Shown: piece by piece, positions 12,210 to 36,328 of the stretch
How the letters are laid out: each line of letters starts with the position of its first letter
How positions within the stretch are numbered: position 1 is the first letter of the stretch
NCBI GenBank assembly: GCA_945889445.1
Contig: CAMDBX010000004.1
Span: 1 to 64,000, forward strand
DNA length: 64,000 nucleotides
Source of the DNA: Rhizobium sp. Q54
Lineage (GTDB): Bacteria; Pseudomonadota; Alphaproteobacteria; Rhizobiales; Aestuariivirgaceae
Direction: 5' to 3'
Made by a program: the position numbers and the translations under genes
Notes under the pieces: model-generated
What the model saw: the letters and a program-made list of their open reading frames with translations, nothing else
Told to the model about the DNA's origin: nothing
The model's database searches: none

Positions 12210-13643
12210 TCAGCCTGGATATTGCGCCAGGCCGAAGCCTGGCTGTCTGGTTGTGCGCTTGCCGCTGCGAACCAGGGGTCCGATCACGGCAAGCGTTGCG
12301 AAAAGAAGCACGATCTCGATCTGATAGACGGTGATGTATCCGGTGGCGGATGAACTTGCCGCGCCCGCCGCGCCGTCGTCTGCAAGGCCGGAAACCGCAT
12401 CGCGCAACATGCCGCTGACTCCCACGCCGATGCCCGCAGCCGTTGCCTGCACACCGCCCCAGGCGCCAAGCGCAAAGCCGCTCATGGTGCCAGCACCGCT
12501 GGAGGCGAGGTCCATCGCCGCAGTCAACATGCCCACCGAGAACAGTCCACCGCCCAGACCGATAAAGAAAGCGCCGGTCTGGAACAGAGAGACCATGTCG
12601 AGTACCTGAGAGAAGATCACCGCCGCAAAGGCCATAATGCCCGCGAGGATGCCCAGCGAAGCCAACCGGTAGGGGTCGCCCCCGCGCGACAGGCGCCGGG
12701 CAGAAATCGCGAAGCCTGCCAGCGTGCCGAGCGCCAGAGTGGCGGTGAGCCAGGTGGTCTGGCCAACGTTGAGGCCGAACACCTGGCCACCGAAGGGCTC
12801 AAGAAGAATATCCTGCATGCTGAACGCCGCGGAGCCGAGGCCCACCCCAACCAGCAGGCGTTTGGCGCGGCCCGCTGCGCTGAATTGCGCCCAGGCCTGG
12901 CTGAAGCTGATGCGTGGCGCGTCCTTTGCCGTAAGCTTCGGATTGCGTGCTTCCTGCTTCCACATGGCGATGACGTTGAGCACCACGGTGATCACGGCAA
13001 CGCCCTGGATGATCTGGATGAGCTGCTTCGCGGTGAAGTCATGCAGCAGCGAGCCGAACACAAGGGCGCTCACCACCATACCAAGGAGCAGCATCACGTA
13101 GAGGAGTGCCACCACGCGCGGCCGCGTTTCTTCCGAGGCAAGGTCGTTGGCCAGAGCAAGACCAGCTGTCTGCGTCGTGTTGATGCCCGCTCCGATCAGC
13201 AGGAAGGCCAGGGCCGCTCCGACTTCACCCCACATGGCCGAGCCGTGGCCGTCGCCCGTCAGCACCAGCAGCGCGAAGGGCAGGATGGCGAAGCCGCCGA
13301 ACTGCATCATAGTGCCGAACCAGATATAGGGTACACGCCGCCAGCCCAGCACCGACTTGTGGGTATCAGACTTGAAGCCGATCAGCGCGCGGAACGGCGC
13401 GATGAGAACGGGGATCGATACCATCAGCCCGACCAGCCAAGCCGGCACGTCAAGTTCGACGATCATGACGCGGTTCAACGTGCCGGTGAGAAGCACCAGC
13501 GCCATGCCGACAGAAACCTGGAACAGGGACAGCCGCAAGAGTCGCGACAAGGGAAGGTCCCTTGTCGCGGCATCGGCGAAGGGCAGGAATCGCGGACCGA
13601 TCTGCTGCAGCGCCGATATGAACTTGCGGTTGATGCCAATCAT
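12210..13643 (-). CDS. lhaA: LH1 assembly protein LhaA (PucC/BCD family)
   Basis: 477 residues, about 12 transmembrane helices, major-facilitator fold. Family landmarks: LLRLSLFQVSVGMALVLLTG, NRVMIVELDVPAWLV, IGFKSDTHKSVLGWRRVPYI and MQDILLEPFGGQVFGL. Position between bchM and puhA identifies it as lhaA rather than pucC. LhaA is needed for LH1 assembly and is thought to deliver bacteriochlorophyll to nascent light-harvesting polypeptides. Its start overlaps the bchM stop by 4 nt. Confidence 0.94.
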   Translation of the reverse strand: MIGINRKFISALQQIGPRFLPFADAATRDLPLSRLLRLSLFQVSVGMALVLLTGTLNRVMIVELDVPAWLVGLMVSIPVLIAPFRALIGFKSDTHKSVLGWRRVPYIWFGTMMQFGGFAILPFALLVLTGDGHGSAMWGEVGAALAFLLIGAGINTTQTAGLALANDLASEETRPRVVALLYVMLLLGMVVSALVFGSLLHDFTAKQLIQIIQGVAVITVVLNVIAMWKQEARNPKLTAKDAPRISFSQAWAQFSAAGRAKRLLVGVGLGSAAFSMQDILLEPFGGQVFGLNVGQTTWLTATLALGTLAGFAISARRLSRGGDPYRLASLGILAGIMAFAAVIFSQVLDMVSLFQTGAFFIGLGGGLFSVGMLTAAMDLASSGAGTMSGFALGAWGGVQATAAGIGVGVSGMLRDAVSGLADDGAAGAASSSATGYITVYQIEIVLLFATLAVIGPLVRSGKRTTRQPGFGLAQYPG

Positions 13644-14337
13644 ATGCGCTTCAGCTCCTGCGCATGGGAAATGTAGAAGCCGCTGGACACCCGCGCATTG
13701 CGGCCCGGCCGCCAGTCAGCGAGATGTTCGGAATGGCTGATCCGCTTGTAAAGTGCGGATGTTGCATGCGGCACGATACGCGGCGAGCGGTCGCTTCGCG
13801 GAAAGGCCTTGCCGACAAAATGCATGGCGGCGAGGGCCGGCGTGCGCGGCGCATAGGTGAAGTGCACGCCGCTGCGGCTCATGTCGGAGAGCCGGGCCAG
13901 CATGCCGATCATGTCGGGGAGGCTGTAGTGGATCAACGAATCCATCGCCACGATGTGATCGAAGTTGCCAAGCTTCTTGTCGAGCATATCGCCGGCCATG
14001 AAGTGGACGCGGCCGTGGCCTAGCTTCTCCGGTACCCGCTCCCTGGCGATACCAATGAGGGTAGGGGAAATGTCCACCGCCGTTACGTCGGCGCCGCGCT
14101 TGGCGGCTTCCACGGCAAGGGCACCCGTTCCGCAACCGGCGTCGAGCACGCGGCAACCGCGCAGGTCGTCGGGCAGGAAGGAGAGCAGCGTGCTGCGCAT
14201 CCGGTCACGGCCGGCGCGCACCGTGGAGCGAATTCCACTCACCGGTGCATCCGAAGTCAGCCTCTGCCATGTGTGCGCAGCAGTCCGGTCGAAGTAGGTT
14301 TCGATTTCGCCGCGGCGTTCGAGGTAGCTGTCGCTCA

Positions 14338-24902: not shown

Positions 24903-25805
24903 ATGGCGAACCTTGCCTCCACACGCGTAGGACCGTCCCTGCCGCAGCCTTCTGCAGTGCTGCAGTTGCTGAAGCCTGTGACGTGGTTTCCGCCCATGTC
25001 GGCCTTCGCCTGCGGGGCGGTTTCATCGGGGCTGTCGCTTACGGATCATTGGGGCCTGGTGCTGGCCGGCATGGCGCTGTCGGGGCCCCTGGTGTGTGCC
25101 ACCAGCCAGGCGGTGAACGACTGGTACGACCGCCACGTGGACGCCATCAACGAGCCGAACCGGCCGATTCCCTCGGGCCGCATTCCCGGGCGCTGGGGGC
25201 TTTATATCGCAATCATCTGGACCGTGCTGTCGCTGGCCGTGGCGCTGGCGCTGGGGCCCGTCGTGTTCTGGGCCGCGGTGTTCGGCATGGCCATGGCCTG
25301 GGCCTATTCGGCGCCACCGTTCCGCTTCAAGGGCAATGGCTGGTGGGGCAATGCGGCGGTGGGCCTGTGCTACGAGGGCCTGCCGTGGTTCACCGGGGCG
25401 GCCGTGCTGCTGGCCGCCGTACCGGGCTGGCCCATCGTGATTCTGGCGCTGCTCTATTCGCTTGGCGCGCATGGCATCATGACGCTCAACGACTTCAAGG
25501 CCATCGAGGGTGACACGCGGATGGGCGTGCGCTCGCTGCCCGTGCAGCTTGGCGTTCAGGGTGCCGCGCGCACGGCTTCAGCGGTGATGGCGCTGCCGCA
25601 GGTGGCGGTGATCGCACTGCTGTTTTCCTGGGGTGCTCCCATCCATGCCGCCGCGGTGCTGGCGCTGCTGATCGTGCAACTCGTGATGATGCGCCGCTTC
25701 ATGGCCGACCCGGTGCAGCGCGCGCTGTGGTATTCGGGCTTCGGCGTTCCGCTTTATGTGTCCGGCATGATGGTGAGTGCCTTCGCGCTCAGGGGGCTGG
25801 CATGA
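24903..25805 (+). CDS. bchG: bacteriochlorophyll synthase
   Basis: 300-residue UbiA-family prenyltransferase with about eight to nine helices. It esterifies bacteriochlorophyllide a with geranylgeranyl/phytyl diphosphate. The first Asp-rich motif is NDWYDRHVDAINEPNRPIPSG, diagnostic of chlorophyll synthases; LNDFKAIEGDTRMGVRSLPV is the second. First gene of a plus-strand operon; its stop overlaps the next start (ATGA). Confidence 0.97.
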   Translation: MANLASTRVGPSLPQPSAVLQLLKPVTWFPPMSAFACGAVSSGLSLTDHWGLVLAGMALSGPLVCATSQAVNDWYDRHVDAINEPNRPIPSGRIPGRWGLYIAIIWTVLSLAVALALGPVVFWAAVFGMAMAWAYSAPPFRFKGNGWWGNAAVGLCYEGLPWFTGAAVLLAAVPGWPIVILALLYSLGAHGIMTLNDFKAIEGDTRMGVRSLPVQLGVQGAARTASAVMALPQVAVIALLFSWGAPIHAAAVLALLIVQLVMMRRFMADPVQRALWYSGFGVPLYVSGMMVSAFALRGLA

Positions 25806-27115
25806 CGGGCTGGCTCGGCATTGCGCGCTTCGGACTGGTGCAGGCGGCGCTCGGCGCCATCGTGGTGCTCACCACCTCCACCATCAACCGGGTGATGATC
25901 GTCGAGCTGGCGCTTCCCGCCATGGTACCGGGCCTGCTGGTGACGTGGCATTACGCGCTGCAGGTTTTGAGGCCCTCATGGGGGCATGGCTCCGACAAGG
26001 GAGGCCGCCGCACGCCGTGGATCATCGTCGGCATGGGCACGCTGGCGCTGGGCGGCTTCGGCGCGGCACTCTCGGTTCATCTCATGGCGCAGGACATGCT
26101 GCTGGGCAGCATCGCCGCCATCGTCTCCTTCACGCTGATTGGCGCAGGCGTTGGTGCGGCAGGCACTTCGCTGCTGGTGCTGCTGGCGAGCCAGGTGGAA
26201 GAGGCACGCCGCCCCGCCGCGGCCACCATCGTGTGGATCATGATGATCGCCGGATTCATCGTCACCGCCGCCACGGCAGGACACTTCCTCGACCCGTTCT
26301 CGACCGAGCGGCTGATGGTGGTGGCGGCCTGCATCTGTGCGGGCGCCTTCCTGCTCACCCTCATCGCGGTGCGCGGGCTGGAGAGCGACCGCGTGATCGT
26401 GAAGAAGGTGGCCGACAAGGTGCCCTTCAGGGAGGCCATCGCGCAGGTGTGGGACGACCGCACGGCGCGCCGCTTCGCCATTTTCATCTTCGTCTCGATG
26501 CTGGCCTATTCGGCACAGGACCTGATTCTCGAACCCTTCGCCGGCCTCGTCTTCGGGCTCACGCCCGGCCAGTCCACCTCGCTGTCGGGCGTGCAGAATT
26601 CCGGCGTGCTGCTGGGCATGGTGCTGGTGGGCGTGGCGTCCACGCTTGCGCCCCGGCTGATGAGCTTGAGAAACTGGACGGTGCTGGGCTGCCTCGGCTC
26701 GGCGCTGGCGCTGGTGGGCCTCGTGGCCGCGGCACAGGTGGGGCCGGGCTGGCCGTTGAAACCCTCGGTCTTCGCGCTTGGCTTCTGCAACGGCGTGTTC
26801 GCCGTGGCGGCCATCGGCTCGATGTTCAACATGGCCAATGACGGCACCTCGCGCGAGGGCGTGCGCATGGGGCTGTTCGGCGCCTCGCAGGCCATCGCCT
26901 TCGGCATTGGCGGCTTCGCGGGAACGGTGCTGGCGGACGTGTCGCGCCTCGTGCTCGGCTCGCCGGTCATGGCTTATGCGACGGTGTTCGCCGTCGAGGC
27001 GTGCTTCTTCATCGCGGCGGCCCTGCTGGCCGCGGCAGTTGGCAACAAAGACGGCTTCGGCGCCGCCGCGAACCCCTTGGTGCTCGCGGCGCGCCACCAG
27101 GCAAGCGGGAGTTAG
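25802..27115 (+). CDS. PucC-family transporter-like assembly protein between bchG and bchP (ORF428 type)
   Basis: 437 residues, about 12 helices. Member of the same PucC/LhaA subfamily of the MFS (TSTINRVMIVELALPAMVPG, SAQDLILEPFAGLVFGLTPG) but shorter. It corresponds to the ORF428/Bch2 gene found between bchG and bchP in Rhodobacter clusters. The start ATG at 25802 overlaps the bchG stop by 4 nt. The role is not established; the context suggests handing newly esterified bacteriochlorophyll to acceptors. It is one of three pucC paralogues in the window. Confidence 0.9.
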   Translation: MTGWLGIARFGLVQAALGAIVVLTTSTINRVMIVELALPAMVPGLLVTWHYALQVLRPSWGHGSDKGGRRTPWIIVGMGTLALGGFGAALSVHLMAQDMLLGSIAAIVSFTLIGAGVGAAGTSLLVLLASQVEEARRPAAATIVWIMMIAGFIVTAATAGHFLDPFSTERLMVVAACICAGAFLLTLIAVRGLESDRVIVKKVADKVPFREAIAQVWDDRTARRFAIFIFVSMLAYSAQDLILEPFAGLVFGLTPGQSTSLSGVQNSGVLLGMVLVGVASTLAPRLMSLRNWTVLGCLGSALALVGLVAAAQVGPGWPLKPSVFALGFCNGVFAVAAIGSMFNMANDGTSREGVRMGLFGASQAIAFGIGGFAGTVLADVSRLVLGSPVMAYATVFAVEACFFIAAALLAAAVGNKDGFGAAANPLVLAARHQASGS

Positions 27116-30683: not shown

Positions 30684-31268
30684 CTATGTCCAGGGGCGGA
30701 ACTCCTTCAGCAGCGGCAGGCCGAACAGCGAGGACAGCGGGGTCGGATTGTTCGAAAGATACGGCATGCCGAGGCGGCCCTTGTCGCCCATGTCGCTGTT
30801 GCTGAGCAGCGGCAGGCCGATGGTTTCGGACAGGCTGCAGTTGCTGCCGGTCACGGCCGGAATGCCGATGATCTTCGACACCGGGTCCGGGTCGTTCAGC
30901 AGCAGCGGGATCATCATGGCGCTGGAGAGGGGGGCGGCCTCGTCCCACAGCTTCACCGGCTCGGGCTCCGGCATGCCGGAGGCGACCGGATCATGGGATT
31001 CGAGGATGCTGGTGGCCACCGCGCCGGAGCCGAAGGGCGCATGCACCGTGACCAGCGCGTGCCCGGCAGCCACGCCCTTGGCATAGATCTTCGCATCGGC
31101 CAGCAGCACGCGGCCCTGCGCGATCTGTGCGGCAATGGCCGACAGCGGCGTGTCGGCGGCGGGCGGGCCCACGACGAAGACGTCGCCATAGCCTTCCTCG
31201 CGCAGTTCCGAGGCAGCCTTGGCGGCCGTTGCGGCATTGGCATACATGCGGGTGATTTCGGTGCTCAT
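30684..31268 (-). CDS. puc-operon protein with five 16-residue repeats (unknown function)
   Basis: 194 residues. The N-terminal ~95 residues (ITRMYANAATAAKAASELRE, VHAPFGSGAVATSILESHDP) resemble a YflT-like/general-stress domain. The C-terminal half consists of five tandem 16-residue units starting at residues 114, 130, 146, 162 and 178. Proline is at position 8 of every unit (121, 137, 153, 169, 185) and glycine at position 6 in four; the unit consensus is (L/V)SxxxG(L/I)PxLxxxxxx. The protein ends three residues after the last unit begins to fade. No signal peptide or membrane helix. It follows pucC by 61 nt on the same strand and is probably co-transcribed with pucBAC. I do not recognise the family; a structural or LH2-related role is a guess from context. 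Confidence 0.8.
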   Translation of the reverse strand: MSTEITRMYANAATAAKAASELREEGYGDVFVVGPPAADTPLSAIAAQIAQGRVLLADAKIYAKGVAAGHALVTVHAPFGSGAVATSILESHDPVASGMPEPEPVKLWDEAAPLSSAMMIPLLLNDPDPVSKIIGIPAVTGSNCSLSETIGLPLLSNSDMGDKGRLGMPYLSNNPTPLSSLFGLPLLKEFRPWT

Positions 31269-31329
31269 CTCGGCTCCTTGTCAAATCAGGATGTCAAATC
31301 AGGGTGTCAGATCAGGTTTGGCGGGCGGC

Positions 31330-32730
31330 TCATCGGATATGGGCCGAAGGTGTTGTGGCGGCAGACGGGGTCTTGAACAGGGCAGTCATGGTAACGATGG
31401 CGGCAATCAGCAGGATCACCTCCAGCATATAGACGGCGAGGTAGGGTGTCAGCGGGCTTGCGCCGTCGATCGCCGACAGCGTGTCGCGGATGATGCCGCC
31501 CAGCGCCACGCCGATGCCGGCGGCCGTTGCCTGCACCGCACCCCAGGCGCCCAGCGCCAGTCCGCGCTGGTCGGGCGGGGCATGGTTCATGGTGGCAGTC
31601 AGCGTGCCATGGCCGAACAGCCCGGCGCCGAAGCCGATCAGGAAGGTGCCGAGGCCGAAGAGCACGGGCGAGAGAAGCGGTGCCGCGAGGATGACCAGCA
31701 CGAAGGCGGGAACACCCAGCATGGCGCCCAGCGAGGCCATGCGGAAGGCATCGAAGCCGCGGCTCAGCACGTAGGACGCAAGGCTGAAGCCGATGAGGCC
31801 GCCTGCCGCCATGGCCGCCGTCAGCAGCGTGGTGCGCGACACGGCAAGGCCCAGCACCTGGCCGCCATAGGGCTCCAGCATCACGTCCTGCATGGAGAAG
31901 GCGAGCGTGCCCACACCCACCGCGATGAGCCGCGCCAGCGCCTTGTCGCCCGCCATGAAGCTGGCCCAGGACTGCTGGAAGGTGGGGTCGGGTGCCGAGG
32001 CGTGGCGGGGCCGGGACTGGCCGCGCGCCTCCTGCTTCCACACGGCGATGCCGTTCAGGACAATGGTTGCGACGCCCGCGCCCTGGATCACCTGCACCAG
32101 GCGGCCGTTGGAAAAATCGGCCAGCAGCGCGCCGAAGATCAGTGCACTGACGATCGAGCCCGCCAGGAGGGCCACATACATGAGGCCCACCACGTTGGGC
32201 TGCTTTTCGGGCGGGGTGAGGTCGGTGGCCAGTGCGAGGCCTACCGTCTGGGTGATGTGCAGCCCGGTGCCCACCAGCAGGAAGGCGAGGCCGGCGGCAA
32301 CCTGGCCGACGATCGGGGGCACTTCGGCGGCATGGCCCTGCTGGGCCAGCACGAGCAGCGCGAAGGGCATCATCGCAAGCCCGCCGAACTGCACCATGGT
32401 GCCCTTGTAAATGAATGGAACCCGCTTCCAGCCCAAGGCCGAGCGGTGGGTGTCTGACTTGAAGCCAATGAGCGCGCGGAAGGGCGCGGCAATCAGCGGA
32501 ATGGCGAGCATCAACGAAACCAGCGAGGCTGGCACGCCCAGTTCGACGATCATCACCCGGTTCAGCGTGCCGACCAGCAGCACCAGCGTCATGCCGGCGC
32601 TGACCTGAAACAGCGAAAGCCGCAGCAGCCGCTCCAGCGGCACGTCCTCGCTGGCGGCATCCGCGAATGGCAGATACTTCGCGCCGAGCCCGGCCCAGGC
32701 TTTCATCATGCTCTGGCTGATGCGGTTCAT
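31330..32730 (-). CDS. pucC: LH2 assembly protein PucC
   Basis: 466 residues, 12 predicted helices. PucC/BCD family landmarks LLRLSLFQVSAGMTLVLLVG, RVMIVELGVPASL, GFKSDTHRSALGWKRVPFI and SMQDVMLEPYGGQVLGL. Immediately downstream of pucBA, so assigned pucC; required for LH2 in Rhodobacter. About as similar to lhaA (12210-13643) as paralogues usually are. Confidence 0.94.
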   Translation of the reverse strand: MNRISQSMMKAWAGLGAKYLPFADAASEDVPLERLLRLSLFQVSAGMTLVLLVGTLNRVMIVELGVPASLVSLMLAIPLIAAPFRALIGFKSDTHRSALGWKRVPFIYKGTMVQFGGLAMMPFALLVLAQQGHAAEVPPIVGQVAAGLAFLLVGTGLHITQTVGLALATDLTPPEKQPNVVGLMYVALLAGSIVSALIFGALLADFSNGRLVQVIQGAGVATIVLNGIAVWKQEARGQSRPRHASAPDPTFQQSWASFMAGDKALARLIAVGVGTLAFSMQDVMLEPYGGQVLGLAVSRTTLLTAAMAAGGLIGFSLASYVLSRGFDAFRMASLGAMLGVPAFVLVILAAPLLSPVLFGLGTFLIGFGAGLFGHGTLTATMNHAPPDQRGLALGAWGAVQATAAGIGVALGGIIRDTLSAIDGASPLTPYLAVYMLEVILLIAAIVTMTALFKTPSAATTPSAHIR

Positions 32731-32803
32731 GGTCCTACGATGCGTCCTGTCGCCACGTCCGACCGCTCCCGCGCGGGGGCGAGGGGGAATAAGAGACTAT
32801 CGT

Positions 32804-32844
32804 GCGGGAGGAGTGCAGGCCCCTCGGGCCCACGCACCTCCCGC
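32804..32844 (-). promoter_or_regulatory. pucBA-pucC intercistronic hairpin
   Basis: GCGGGAGG (32804-32811) pairs with CCTCCCGC (32837-32844), and inner GC-rich segments extend the stem. It lies in the 151-base gap after pucA. Such hairpins after pufBA/pucBA protect the light-harvesting message from 3' decay and raise its level over downstream genes. Confidence 0.7.
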
Positions 32845-32881
32845 GCTGTCGTTGCCGTCCCTTGCGGAACGACCCGGCCAC

Positions 32882-33166
32882 CTACTTCGCGGCCAGTTCC
32901 GCGCCGTCCAGCGACGAGGCACCGGGCGTCACGTTGACGGTGATGACGTAGCCGTCAGCCGTCTTCATAACGTTGGACGCCACGGGCGCGATGTTGGTGT
33001 CGACGGCGGCTGTCTTGGCCGCGCCGCCGTTCCAGAAGTTGGACACCCAGGCGGTGTGCGTCATCACTGACGCATGGACCACAAGAGACGTCACCGCCAC
33101 GCCGCCGATGAACAGCGGCAGGCCCACTGTCGGGTTCACGACACACCAGATTCTACCTTGGTTCAT
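32882..33166 (-). CDS. pucA: LH2 alpha polypeptide with extended C-terminus
   Basis: 94 residues. MNQGRIWCVVNPTVGLPLFI is a canonical LH2 alpha N-terminus (Met1 ligates B800 in known structures). The single helix holds His31, the B850 ligand, in SLVVHASVM. Residues 44-45 are Phe-Trp instead of the Tyr-Trp/Tyr-Tyr pair that hydrogen-bonds B850. After NGG at about 48, a ~45-residue Ala/Val-rich tail follows; most LH2 alpha chains end by about 55-60. It lies 12 nt after pucB. Confidence 0.96.
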   Translation of the reverse strand: MNQGRIWCVVNPTVGLPLFIGGVAVTSLVVHASVMTHTAWVSNFWNGGAAKTAAVDTNIAPVASNVMKTADGYVITVNVTPGASSLDGAELAAK

Positions 33167-33178
33167 GTCATGTTCCTC

Positions 33179-33331
33179 CTAGTGCAGCCACGGCGAGTAG
33201 ATATACGCCAGCAAGTGAGCGAAGAGGGCGATCACGAAGAACACCCTCGCGCCATCGATGACGTGCTTGTGCAGCTCTTCTGATTCCCTGATGGTGAGGC
33301 CGGTGGGCCACACCCTGTTCGGATCGTCCAT
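33179..33331 (-). CDS. pucB: LH2 beta polypeptide
   Basis: 50 residues, [20 protein letters not shown], then [20 protein letters not shown] and a PWLH end. The two light-harvesting histidines (EELHKH and FAHLLAY, 18 residues apart) are present. The ATG is preceded by GGAGGATAGCAGA. It starts 97 nt after pufC with no obvious terminator between. A single pucBA pair is seen. Confidence 0.96.
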
Positions 33332-33427
33332 TCTGCTATCCTCCAGACTGAGGTTGGTTTCGTGCTGGACCCGCACGCAGGTTTCCCGTCATTTCATCAA
33401 CGACAAGGTTCGGTTTGCTCGCGGTCC

Positions 33428-34486
33428 TCATGGATTGGGAACCGAGAGTTCGGGGTAGCTCTTGGCCATGGAGAAGCCATAGAGCGGCTTGTTCACACCG
33501 TTGTGGCAGGTGGCGCAGTTCGCCTTCAGCACGTCGCCCATCGGGCCCTTGCGGTTGGCCGGGAACACGTCGGTCAGCGGCGTCATGTAGCTGCCGTTGA
33601 CGTCGCGCACCATCTCGATGCCATGCCAGGCCGTCACGCGCTGCGGGCGGCTTTCCTCCCAGCTCGAGAACTGGCGGGAGTTGTGGCAGAAGGTGCAGTT
33701 GACGCCGAGCCCCGTCGACATGTGCATCATCAGGGAATAGGTCTTCTCCGTCGCCCGGATGCTGGCACCGGTGCCGCCCGGCAGCGGCGTGGTGGCGACC
33801 ACGCGGATGCTGTCGGCCGGCGTGTTGAGCAACGTGGTGAAGGGATCATAGGGCAGCGAGGCATAGGCCGGCACCGGCTGGCCCGCTAGGTTCTGGCCGT
33901 CGCGGCTCGCAGCCATTCCGCCCGCCTGCTTCGGCCCCGGGTTGGTGGCCCAGACATTGGCCGGCACGGCATTGCCGCGGTGGCAGGTGTAGCAGGTGAC
34001 GCCGGTTTCGGCGACGTGGCTCTTGTATTGGGTGTTGATGGCGCGCGTCATCTGGATCATGCGCCGCGCGACGACCTTGGTGTAGACCTCGTCCGAAGCC
34101 ATGTTCTCGAGGTTGTGGCAATAGGCGCAGCCGGCGTTGTCGCCTTCCTGCGGGGCCACCCAGGTCGAGATGGCGTTCATCAGGCGCACGAACTGCGCGG
34201 TGTCGAGGTCGCCCAGCACCTGCACGTTCTTGTAGTTCTCGGTGTCGTTCTTGACGAGCACGCCGTCGTTCTCCACCGGGTCGTCGGGCACCGGCAGGGT
34301 GTTGAGCGCCTTCAGCGTCTCGGCGATGCGCGGGTTGGTGATCTGCTCCATGCCCAGGCCGCGGAAGCCGAGCTGGGTGGAGTCCATCGGTGGACGTTCC
34401 CACTGCAGCATCATGGGGATTGCCAGAAGGACAGCGATGACGCTGACGAGGAGCGAGGCGGTGAGGGTGGTTGCCGAGAGTTTCAT
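33428..34486 (-). CDS. pufC: reaction-centre tetrahaem cytochrome c subunit
   Basis: 352 residues, four CxxCH haem motifs: CAYCH, CYTCH, CTFCH, CATCH. The N-terminal helix (about 8-26) has no lipobox cysteine, so the protein is probably anchored by an uncleaved membrane segment instead of lipid. It passes electrons from cytochrome c2 to the special pair on the periplasmic side. It follows pufM by 13 nt, completing pufQBALMC. Confidence 0.97.
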   Translation of the reverse strand: MKLSATTLTASLLVSVIAVLLAIPMMLQWERPPMDSTQLGFRGLGMEQITNPRIAETLKALNTLPVPDDPVENDGVLVKNDTENYKNVQVLGDLDTAQFVRLMNAISTWVAPQEGDNAGCAYCHNLENMASDEVYTKVVARRMIQMTRAINTQYKSHVAETGVTCYTCHRGNAVPANVWATNPGPKQAGGMAASRDGQNLAGQPVPAYASLPYDPFTTLLNTPADSIRVVATTPLPGGTGASIRATEKTYSLMMHMSTGLGVNCTFCHNSRQFSSWEESRPQRVTAWHGIEMVRDVNGSYMTPLTDVFPANRKGPMGDVLKANCATCHNGVNKPLYGFSMAKSYPELSVPNP

Positions 34487-34499
34487 GATCAGCCGTCTC

Positions 34500-35474
34500 C
34501 TATTGCGCCGTCGCCGGGTCGATGACGGGCGCCGTCAGGTCGAGCGGATACATGGGCGTGACCCCGTGCTTCACGCCCCACAGGTACCAGTTGTCCACCA
34601 CCGTGCCGGTGAGCAGGATGCCGATGCCGCCGACGAGCGGGCACAGCACCGCGAACCACCACGCCCAGCGGTGGATCGACTCCATCGTGGCGTTGAAACC
34701 CATGGTCCAGCGCCAGAACAGGGCGGCGCGCTCAGAGGCCGTGCCGCGGTCGATGATCTGCTCGATCTCGCGCTCACCGCCCAGCCGCGAGACGGCGAGG
34801 ATGGTGGCGCCATGCATGGCGAACAGCAGCGCTGAGCCGTAGAGGAAGGCGATCGAGAGCATGTGGAAGGGGTTGTAGAAGAGGTTGCCGTAGCGGATCG
34901 AGAAGGCCGCCGTCCAGTCGAGGTGGGGGAAGATGCCGAAGGGCACGGCCTCCTCGAAGCTGCCCATCAGCAGCGGCCGGATGAAGCCCAGCACCAGGTA
35001 GAGCCAGATCGCCGCGGCGAAGGCCCAGGCGATGTGGGTTCCCATGCCGAGTGCGCGGGCGCGGCGGTATGTCCTGAGCCACCACAGCAGGATGGAAGCG
35101 GTGAGGAAGAAGCCCGCCATCTGCCACCAGCCGCCTTCGCGCAGGGGCGCCAGCGACAGGCCATACTTGGCCGGCGGCGGCTCGAGTCCGAGCCAGAATA
35201 ATTGCCTGACGAACTGGATCGGGTTCCAGTTCACCGAGGCCAGCATGTTGAGCCCGATGATCTCGATGGCGATGAAGCCGCAGAGCAGGGACATGATGCC
35301 CAGCCCGCCGAGATAGATGGGGCCCAGCTGCGCGTCGCCGATGATGCCGAGCAGGTAGTTGGTGGTGATGCCCTTTTCGCGCGGCCAGTTGCCGGGCTTC
35401 ATGGGCACGCCCAGATCGTCTGGTCCGTGAACCTGAACGCGGGTGAAGATATTCTGGTATTCGATCATCATCAT
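34500..35474 (-). CDS. pufM: reaction centre M subunit
   Basis: 324 residues, five transmembrane helices. Signatures: [47 protein letters not shown] with the His ligands of bacteriochlorophyll and FMHGATILA-type iron/quinone region. It ends beyond the helices with an [12 protein letters not shown] tail that is normal for pufC-containing reaction centres. GGAGGACATGAC precedes the run of ATG codons. Confidence 0.98.
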
Positions 35475-35490
35475 GTCATGTCCTCCGCGC

Positions 35491-36315
35491 TCAAGACCAG
35501 ATCGGCAGGTCGAGCCACCAGTTCCACCATTCAGGCCAGCCGCGGGTCCAGAACGGGCCCGAGATCACGATGCAGACGGCGCTGAAGAACACCGCACCAA
35601 GCGCCAGGAACAGGCCCAAGCGATGGATGCCCAGCGTGCCGATCGAGTAGCCGATGTGATCGCGGAAGAAGCTGTTCTCGTGCTCGGCGGTCTTCACCGT
35701 TTCGCCCTTGAGCGGATTGGTGGCCGAGAGCACCAGGCCGCCATGCATCGCCAGCGCCAGCGTGCAGGTGAAGAACAGCGTGATGGCGATCATGTGCGCC
35801 GGATTGTAGTGGAAGTGCAGGTACTGGTAGCCAACGTTCGACACCCAGTCCAAGTGGCTGATGATGCCATAGGGGAAGCCGTGGCCCCAGGCGCCCAGCA
35901 GCAAGGGGCGGATGATCTCGAGGGTCACATAGGCGAAGATGGCGAAGCCGAAGGCGATGGGCACATGCAGCCCGATGCCGAGCTTGCGGCAGATCTCGAC
36001 CTCGCGCAGCGCCCAGGACACGAAGGCCCCGGTGGCGCAGAAGGTGATGATCTGCCAGAGGCCGCCCTGCTTGAGGGGCGCCAGCGCCAGGCCATAGCTC
36101 AAGTCCGGCGGTGCGATGTTGATTTGCCAGAGGTTCCATGTGCCGCCGATCGCCGCGCCATAGACGATGAGGGCGGTTCCGATCGATGCGAAGAAGGCCG
36201 TGAGCACGCCGAAGAAGCCCACGTAGAAGGGGCCGACCCAGAAATCGAACAGGTCGCCGCCGATCAGCGTTCCGCCGCGGACGCGATATTTCTTCTCGAA
36301 GCTCAGCATGGCCAT
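35491..36315 (-). CDS. pufL: reaction centre L subunit
   Basis: 274 residues starting [20 protein letters not shown]. Five helices; [20 protein letters not shown] and [20 protein letters not shown] carry the pigment and iron ligands. ATG 36315 is preferred because AGGAG lies 9 nt upstream; a GTG at 36324 touches the AGGAG itself. It follows pufA after a hairpin-bearing gap. Confidence 0.98.
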
Positions 36316-36328
36316 GGTGGTCACTCCT

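Follow-up and report, generated by a model that had tools for sequence, protein, structure and literature searches.

What is the protein whose gene stands behind pucC in this locus, and what do the evenly spaced repeats in its C-terminal half have to do with LH2? The window, by which we mean the whole stretch of 64,000 nucleotides that was analysed, carries at 30684-31268 on the minus strand an open reading frame for a protein of 194 residues, here called protein X. A first-pass annotation had placed the gene downstream of pucBAC, which is right, and we can add that the LH2 block itself follows directly after pufL-pufM-pufC, the gene order being pufL-pufM-pufC-LH2 beta-LH2 alpha-pucC-X. The relevant features are as follows.

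30684..31268, minus strand: protein X, 194 amino acids, LH2-linked and likely homologous to LH2-gamma, from which it differs by an additional domain at the N-terminus (open reading frame and translation; family, linkage and homology)
30975..31268, minus strand: residues 1-98, an N-terminal domain for which a ferredoxin-like beta-alpha-beta-alpha-alpha-beta-alpha order is predicted
30936..30974, minus strand: linker, residues 99-111, the stretch that separates the domain from the units
30888..30935, minus strand: unit 1, APLSSAMMIPLLLNDP, core Pro 121
30840..30887, minus strand: unit 2, DPVSKIIGIPAVTGSN, core Pro 137
30792..30839, minus strand: unit 3, CSLSETIGLPLLSNSD, core Pro 153
30744..30791, minus strand: unit 4, MGDKGRLGMPYLSNNP, core Pro 169
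30696..30743, minus strand: unit 5, TPLSSLFGLPLLKEFR, core Pro 185, most like the final unit of Rhodopseudomonas X
31274..31279, minus strand: likely ribosome-binding site AAGGAG ahead of the X start, judged from the sequence
31330..32730, minus strand: pucC, 61 bases upstream of X (PF03209, E 5.3e-147)
32882..33166, minus strand: LH2-type alpha gene (PF00556; typed as LH2 by resemblance to the LH2 alpha of other loci)
33179..33331, minus strand: LH2-type beta gene, start set at MDDPN (PF00556; the NCBIfam LH1-beta model NF040862 matches too)
33428..36324, minus strand: pufL-pufM-pufC, immediately preceding the LH2 block

X is present in one copy in its own genome. Several features of the surrounding DNA may be recorded here. 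The LH2 genes lie directly behind pufLMC (30684-36324), inside the photosynthesis gene cluster; according to the accessible text of a review, LH2 genes are mostly found outside that cluster, with Limnohabitans as the exception (PMC12654162). The LH2 alpha (32882-33166) has Phe44 Trp45 instead of Tyr44 Trp45 (numbering from the printed sequence), which, by the hydrogen-bond rule given in the accessible part of the gamma structure paper, predicts a somewhat blue-shifted B850 (PMC9618040). In the gap between pucC and X, a 13-base unit occurs in 2.9 tandem copies (31279-31316), immediately 5′ of the ribosome-binding site. A GC-rich hairpin is located at 32725-32890, between LH2 alpha and pucC, and for this region as a whole the predicted folding does not exceed that of shuffled sequence (z -0.95), with 34/200 shuffles doing at least as well. 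The window also contains a third PucC-family open reading frame at 12213-13715 (minus strand), the others being pucC and 25727-27115.

The first-pass annotation had described repeats of 16 residues at 30690-30929, with Pro at 121, 137, 153, 169 and 185 and Gly two residues before in four units. These repeats are real. Five units occupy X residues 112-191 (30696-30935, in agreement with the earlier placement); the core Pro is present in all five at the positions named, the core Gly precedes it by two residues in four of the five, with Met in the first unit, and the full G-x-P-L-L is found in two. Across residues 105-194, 16 is the top-scoring of periods 5-40, and 0/4000 shuffles match either the score at that period or the best score at any period. 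The same procedure finds no period in residues 1-104, where 581/4000 shuffles reach the period-16 score and 2720/4000 the best any-period score. The repeats had also been called "exact", which holds for their spacing but not for their sequence, as any two units of the window share 2-7 of 16 residues. At the DNA level, Tandem Repeats Finder reported no array across the units. In comparisons with six relatives from the genus, dN came to 0.14-0.24 for the N-terminal half and 0.24-0.31 for the repeats, with dS at 0.47-1.05; since dN is well under dS in both halves, both are conserved as protein by purifying selection, and the 16-residue units are conserved across many families. In the X proteins of loci L039 and L041, two unit types alternate and period 32 outscores 16, while the X relatives of L040, L042, L043, L044 and L045 have steps of ~25-28 residues or few recognisable units.

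The curated libraries hold no model for this protein: neither Pfam nor NCBIfam gave a significant match, and a single-sequence search turned up no significant solved structure. To that extent the earlier remark that X belongs to no described family stands; it does not extend to the repeats, which are probably related to the LH2-gamma of Rhodopseudomonas (Rps.) palustris. Two candidate identities were discarded as not significant, namely a phosphoribosyltransferase (PF00156, only E 0.29) and a ParA-like protein (PDB rows at E 0.067).

In the family sample, X occurs in 10 of 37 same-genus genomes and in none of 32 from other genera; an eleventh match, in G019, was spurious. The order sample of 397 genomes gave 27 matches at E <= 0.01, made up of 20 X and seven weak partial ones (G019, G155, G302, G407, G413, G422 and G444; E 0.002-0.008). 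The latter had been set aside before the 20 were counted, as each match was partial and in a genome without an LH2-type beta match, G019 alone having been read. This search used a single query sequence and its weakest true member scored E 0.0015 (G163), so distant X members elsewhere may be missed. A profile search of the class sample (385 genomes) added X in 10 further genomes: 29 genomes matched at E <= 0.01, comprising 11 with X (own genome included), eight that were read and are not X, and 10 weaker ones that were left out of the count. Profile matches in G727 and G678 were low-complexity frames. In the phylum sample, four of 180 genomes matched at E <= 1e-5 (our own, another with a known X, and two encoding relatives of the N-domain that lack units), and this very limited 180-genome test found no X outside the Alphaproteobacteria. 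One genome (G034) encodes a second, shorter X relative of 147 amino acids with two units (L046, 1183-1623, minus strand); no LH gene lies in the 12 kb of sequence covered at this locus, but the gene is 1.2 kb from a contig end.

Outside the genus, all 25 X loci that were read (15 from the order, 10 from the class) adjoin LH2-type alpha and beta genes, and pucC is visible at 24 of them, the contig of L075 ending before any pucC. Within the genus, the six loci with long flanks (the window, L004 and L047-L050) all read pucBA-C-X with pufC ahead, which brings pucC to 30 of 31 loci; L006, L008, L011 and L012, with short flanks, were excluded from this count. The arrangements in the order are pucBA-C-X (9), pucBA-X-C (2) and X divergent from pucBA (4; L040, L042, L044 and L045), and those in the class are pucBA-X-C (6), pucBA-X-pucBA-C (2), divergent (1) and convergent (1).

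Co-occurrence was counted in the 397-genome order sample only. Using the LH2 beta of the window as query, 70 genomes matched, and the scores fell into two clearly separated sets, the LH2-type at E <= 3.3e-16 and the rest, of LH1 type, at E >= 2.7e-8. LH2-type beta is found in 24 genomes, 20 of which, spanning 10 families, have X, and the four without it all belong to one genus with several beta copies. Absence from other puc operons, which the first-pass annotation had named as evidence against an LH2 role, is therefore not what we see. No convincing X was found in the remaining 373 genomes of the order, 46 of them with an LH1-type match. In families f1, f2, f18 and f20, the LH2-bearing members have X, and genomes without LH2-type beta contain no convincing X.

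The link to a characterised protein comes from Rhodopseudomonas. As described in the accessible text of the structure paper (PMC9618040), gamma (RPA1495 in Rps. palustris CGA009) is a ribbon without regular secondary structure at the outer cytoplasmic side of LH2, which extends over six of the nine alpha/beta pairs and has six repeats, a serine of each ligating one bacteriochlorophyll, each of these pairs having a single repeat and a single pigment; by the BLASTp of Qian et al. (2022), it is confined to Rhodopseudomonas (PMC9618040). Within the literature searched, including the accessible texts of PMC9897067, PMC12817894, PMC12654162, PMC10214105, PMC5069747 and PMC5783997 and leaving aside supplements, preprints and most subscription papers, there was no mention of the X family, or of gamma outside Rhodopseudomonas. 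The source text available for CGA009 gives pucBe as RPA1491 and pucAe as RPA1492; by gene order alone, RPA1493 would be pucC and RPA1494 would be X.

We found gamma in 10 of 168 genomes of one family, which we call Rhodopseudomonas-type on the strength of that gamma. Nine have the operon pucBA-pucC-X-gamma, and in the tenth contig ends cut gamma. Together they encode 11 full X proteins, all matched by profile A1, which was built without them (E 7.5e-44 to 6.4e-29; open reading frames of 19 loci). At a database size of 177,635, window X matches 10 of the 11 over its full length (E 2.5e-20 to 5.4e-12), with its N-terminal half (E 1.2e-8 to 0.003) and with its repeats (E 1.2e-10 to 2.5e-4), and gamma matches 10 at E 3.3e-33 to 2.1e-19. 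A profile of seven Rhodopseudomonas-type X proteins reaches gamma in the PDB (7zcu_S, 4.6e-32), whose repeats are likewise 16 residues apart, with period 16. The first and last units of the Rhodopseudomonas-type X are of the window type (e.g. TPLSSWLGLPVLSK) and its middle units of the gamma type (GPYKSFSGTPLLLDSS); the register is for the most part 16 residues, though some steps measure 13. Window X, homologous in both halves and adjoined by LH2 genes, thus belongs to the LH2-linked X family. At the place of the ligand serine, its units 1-5 have M, I, I, L and F (hydrophobic in all five), and among 170 X units from outside Rhodopseudomonas, a fraction of 0.91 have L, F, I, M or W in that place; the 100% Ser and Gly of the 54 gamma units reflects selection by a pattern requiring S-G. 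Because the ligand serine is absent, we class X among the homologues of gamma and do not call it a gamma; it may or may not carry pigment. Two longer gamma-like proteins with a window-type unit at the end were also seen (L141 8076-8627 and L144 11168-11620, both minus strand); that of L141 has about nine units by eye, and nine would fit a nonameric LH2 ring. A gamma query of the order sample matched two of 397 genomes, both in unrelated frames without nearby LH genes.

It is likely, on sequence comparison, that the window repeats and gamma are homologous. This rests mainly on the Rhodopseudomonas X bridge, direct similarity being weak: a narrow profile gives E 590 for window repeats against gamma, hhalign gives a probability of 65, profile A7 places gamma in the fifth PDB row as second distinct protein at E 0.46, and gamma is not among the PDB matches listed for profiles A1 and A2. 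The gamma-type middles of 10 X proteins, tested after the window-type ends had been cut away, match a Rhodopseudomonas-free repeat profile at E 1.5e-4 to 0.06 in nine and 8.8 in one. Frame-keeping shuffles match the real score in 3/2000 cases, and the highest control, at 24.5 bits, is level with the highest real score (24.6). The narrow profile gives these middles E values of 0.09 to 140, and here 16/2000 controls attain the real score. A unit matrix applied to eight gammas gave a mixed result, with two beating all 300 shuffles and no unit being recognised in two. The characterised family to which the repeats lead is itself an LH2 subunit, and not the LH-unrelated family that the first-pass annotation had considered. 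Its suggestion of a solenoid is unlikely in view of the extended ribbon described for gamma in the accessible text of PMC9618040; the AlphaFold model (two sequences) likewise leaves the X repeats without secondary structure, which is weak support given the very low confidence over this part (pLDDT about 28-39).

For the N-terminal domain, hhalign finds a distant relationship with general-stress-type proteins (probability 98), and a distant relative, L085, matches PF11181 at 1.3e-6; window X itself has no PF11181 match in Pfam. N-domain distances correlate with PucC distances (r 0.86, 39 loci, 0/2000 permutations), a result that common genome descent alone may yield.

We consider it somewhat probable that X is an LH2 accessory protein, a full-length relative of LH2-gamma whose C-terminal half forms a ribbon on the cytoplasmic side of LH2. 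Linkage, co-occurrence and homology support the LH2 role and the multivalent LH2 surface proposed earlier. The ferredoxin-like N-domain, of about 98 residues, would stay at the cytoplasmic face, and the five units would trace the outer rim of the LH2 ring on its cytoplasmic side, stretched out into a ribbon as gamma is in Rps. palustris. With one unit per alpha/beta pair and G-x-P-L-[LI] as the repeated contact, X would staple about five adjacent pairs, and it may be fitted together with PucC. The shape and position of the ribbon, one unit per pair, its permanence and the part played by the N-domain are what we infer. Counting against the ribbon are the weak direct similarity of the window repeats to gamma, the hydrophobic residues in the place of the ligand serine, the presence of X alongside gamma in Rhodopseudomonas, the four of 24 LH2 genomes without X and the 25-28-residue steps of some relatives.

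The main rival, which we think possible but rather unlikely, is that X is an assembly factor and not a subunit: its repeats would align alpha/beta pairs during insertion by PucC, after which X leaves, and gamma would be a Rhodopseudomonas duplicate without the N-domain that became a permanent, pigment-binding part. X does lie between pucBA and pucC or adjoin pucC, keeps the N-domain that gamma is missing, and lacks the ligand serine. Moreover, X and gamma occur together in 9/9 genomes with a complete operon, and alpha, beta and gamma are the sole components given in the accessible text on purified Rps. palustris LH2, leaving aside its supplement, with no mention of a partner of 22 kDa. A function of X elsewhere than in the completed ring would agree with this. 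However, where X occurs and no gamma was found, there is no other source of a ribbon, and transient binding is without direct evidence. A related and more tentative idea is that X is a molecular ruler or staple, in which the N-domain starts the ring at the cytoplasmic face, PucC brings the alpha/beta pairs for capture by one unit each, and the number of units influences how the ring is built up; gamma would then be a duplicate that lost the N-domain and gained the serine ligand, turning an assembly staple into an extra antenna pigment.

The likeness between window and gamma units could also be convergent, imposed by the pitch of the LH ring, with gamma-type units inserted into Rhodopseudomonas X from elsewhere. 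The non-significant direct comparison agrees with this, but we regard it as very improbable, given that the homology between the X of Rhodopseudomonas and that of the window spans the N-domain and the C-terminal half, that both unit types share one register, and that the Rhodopseudomonas-free profile and shuffles speak against it; a shared pitch would point to the ring even so. Marginally less probable still is a role for X in the cytoplasm, in stress response or regulation, with nothing but the operon in common with LH2 and with repeats that are a flexible tail. The kinship of the N-domain (hhalign 98; PF11181 in L085) and the unstructured tail predicted by AlphaFold fit such a protein; against it, the units are conserved over many families under purifying selection and belong with those of gamma, an LH2 subunit.

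If X is LH2-linked kin of gamma across many alphaproteobacterial families, a ribbon or staple would be a common companion of LH2, the X family would supply an origin for gamma, and LH2 models of X-bearing species may miss a part. This suggests that gamma-like ribbons, or proteins related to them, came into photosynthetic antennas earlier and occur there more widely than their known place in one genus would indicate. The ribbon question is directly testable on LH2 isolated from an X-bearing bacterium.

Among known systems, Rhodobacter capsulatus has PucE, a small companion protein of LH2 whose gene follows pucC. The YflT/general-stress-type proteins (PF11181; relatives L083-L088) share a distant N-domain likeness with X, but the L083-L088 proteins have a Gly-rich insert and neither 16-residue units nor nearby LH genes. 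As described in the accessible text of PMC10214105, the LH1 gamma of Blastochloris and the gamma-like polypeptides of Rhodopila are extra LH-ring polypeptides, as is proposed for X; compared by description, they are many separate polypeptides, one per LH1-ring site, and not a single ribbon of repeats. The Rhodopseudomonas-type X has the place after pucC, the N-domain and the window-type first and last units in common with window X, and differs in its gamma-type middle units and the gamma gene next to it. LH2-gamma itself (Q6N9P5; PDB 7zcu_S, 7zdi, 7ze3 and 7ze8) has the 16-residue tandem units with their G-x-P-L-[LI] core, and, like X, is encoded in an LH2 operon with no signal or membrane helix seen. 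However, it consists of 97 residues with six units and no N-domain, as against 194 residues, five units and an N-domain in window X, and the Ser directly before its Gly, which ligates bacteriochlorophyll, has no counterpart there.
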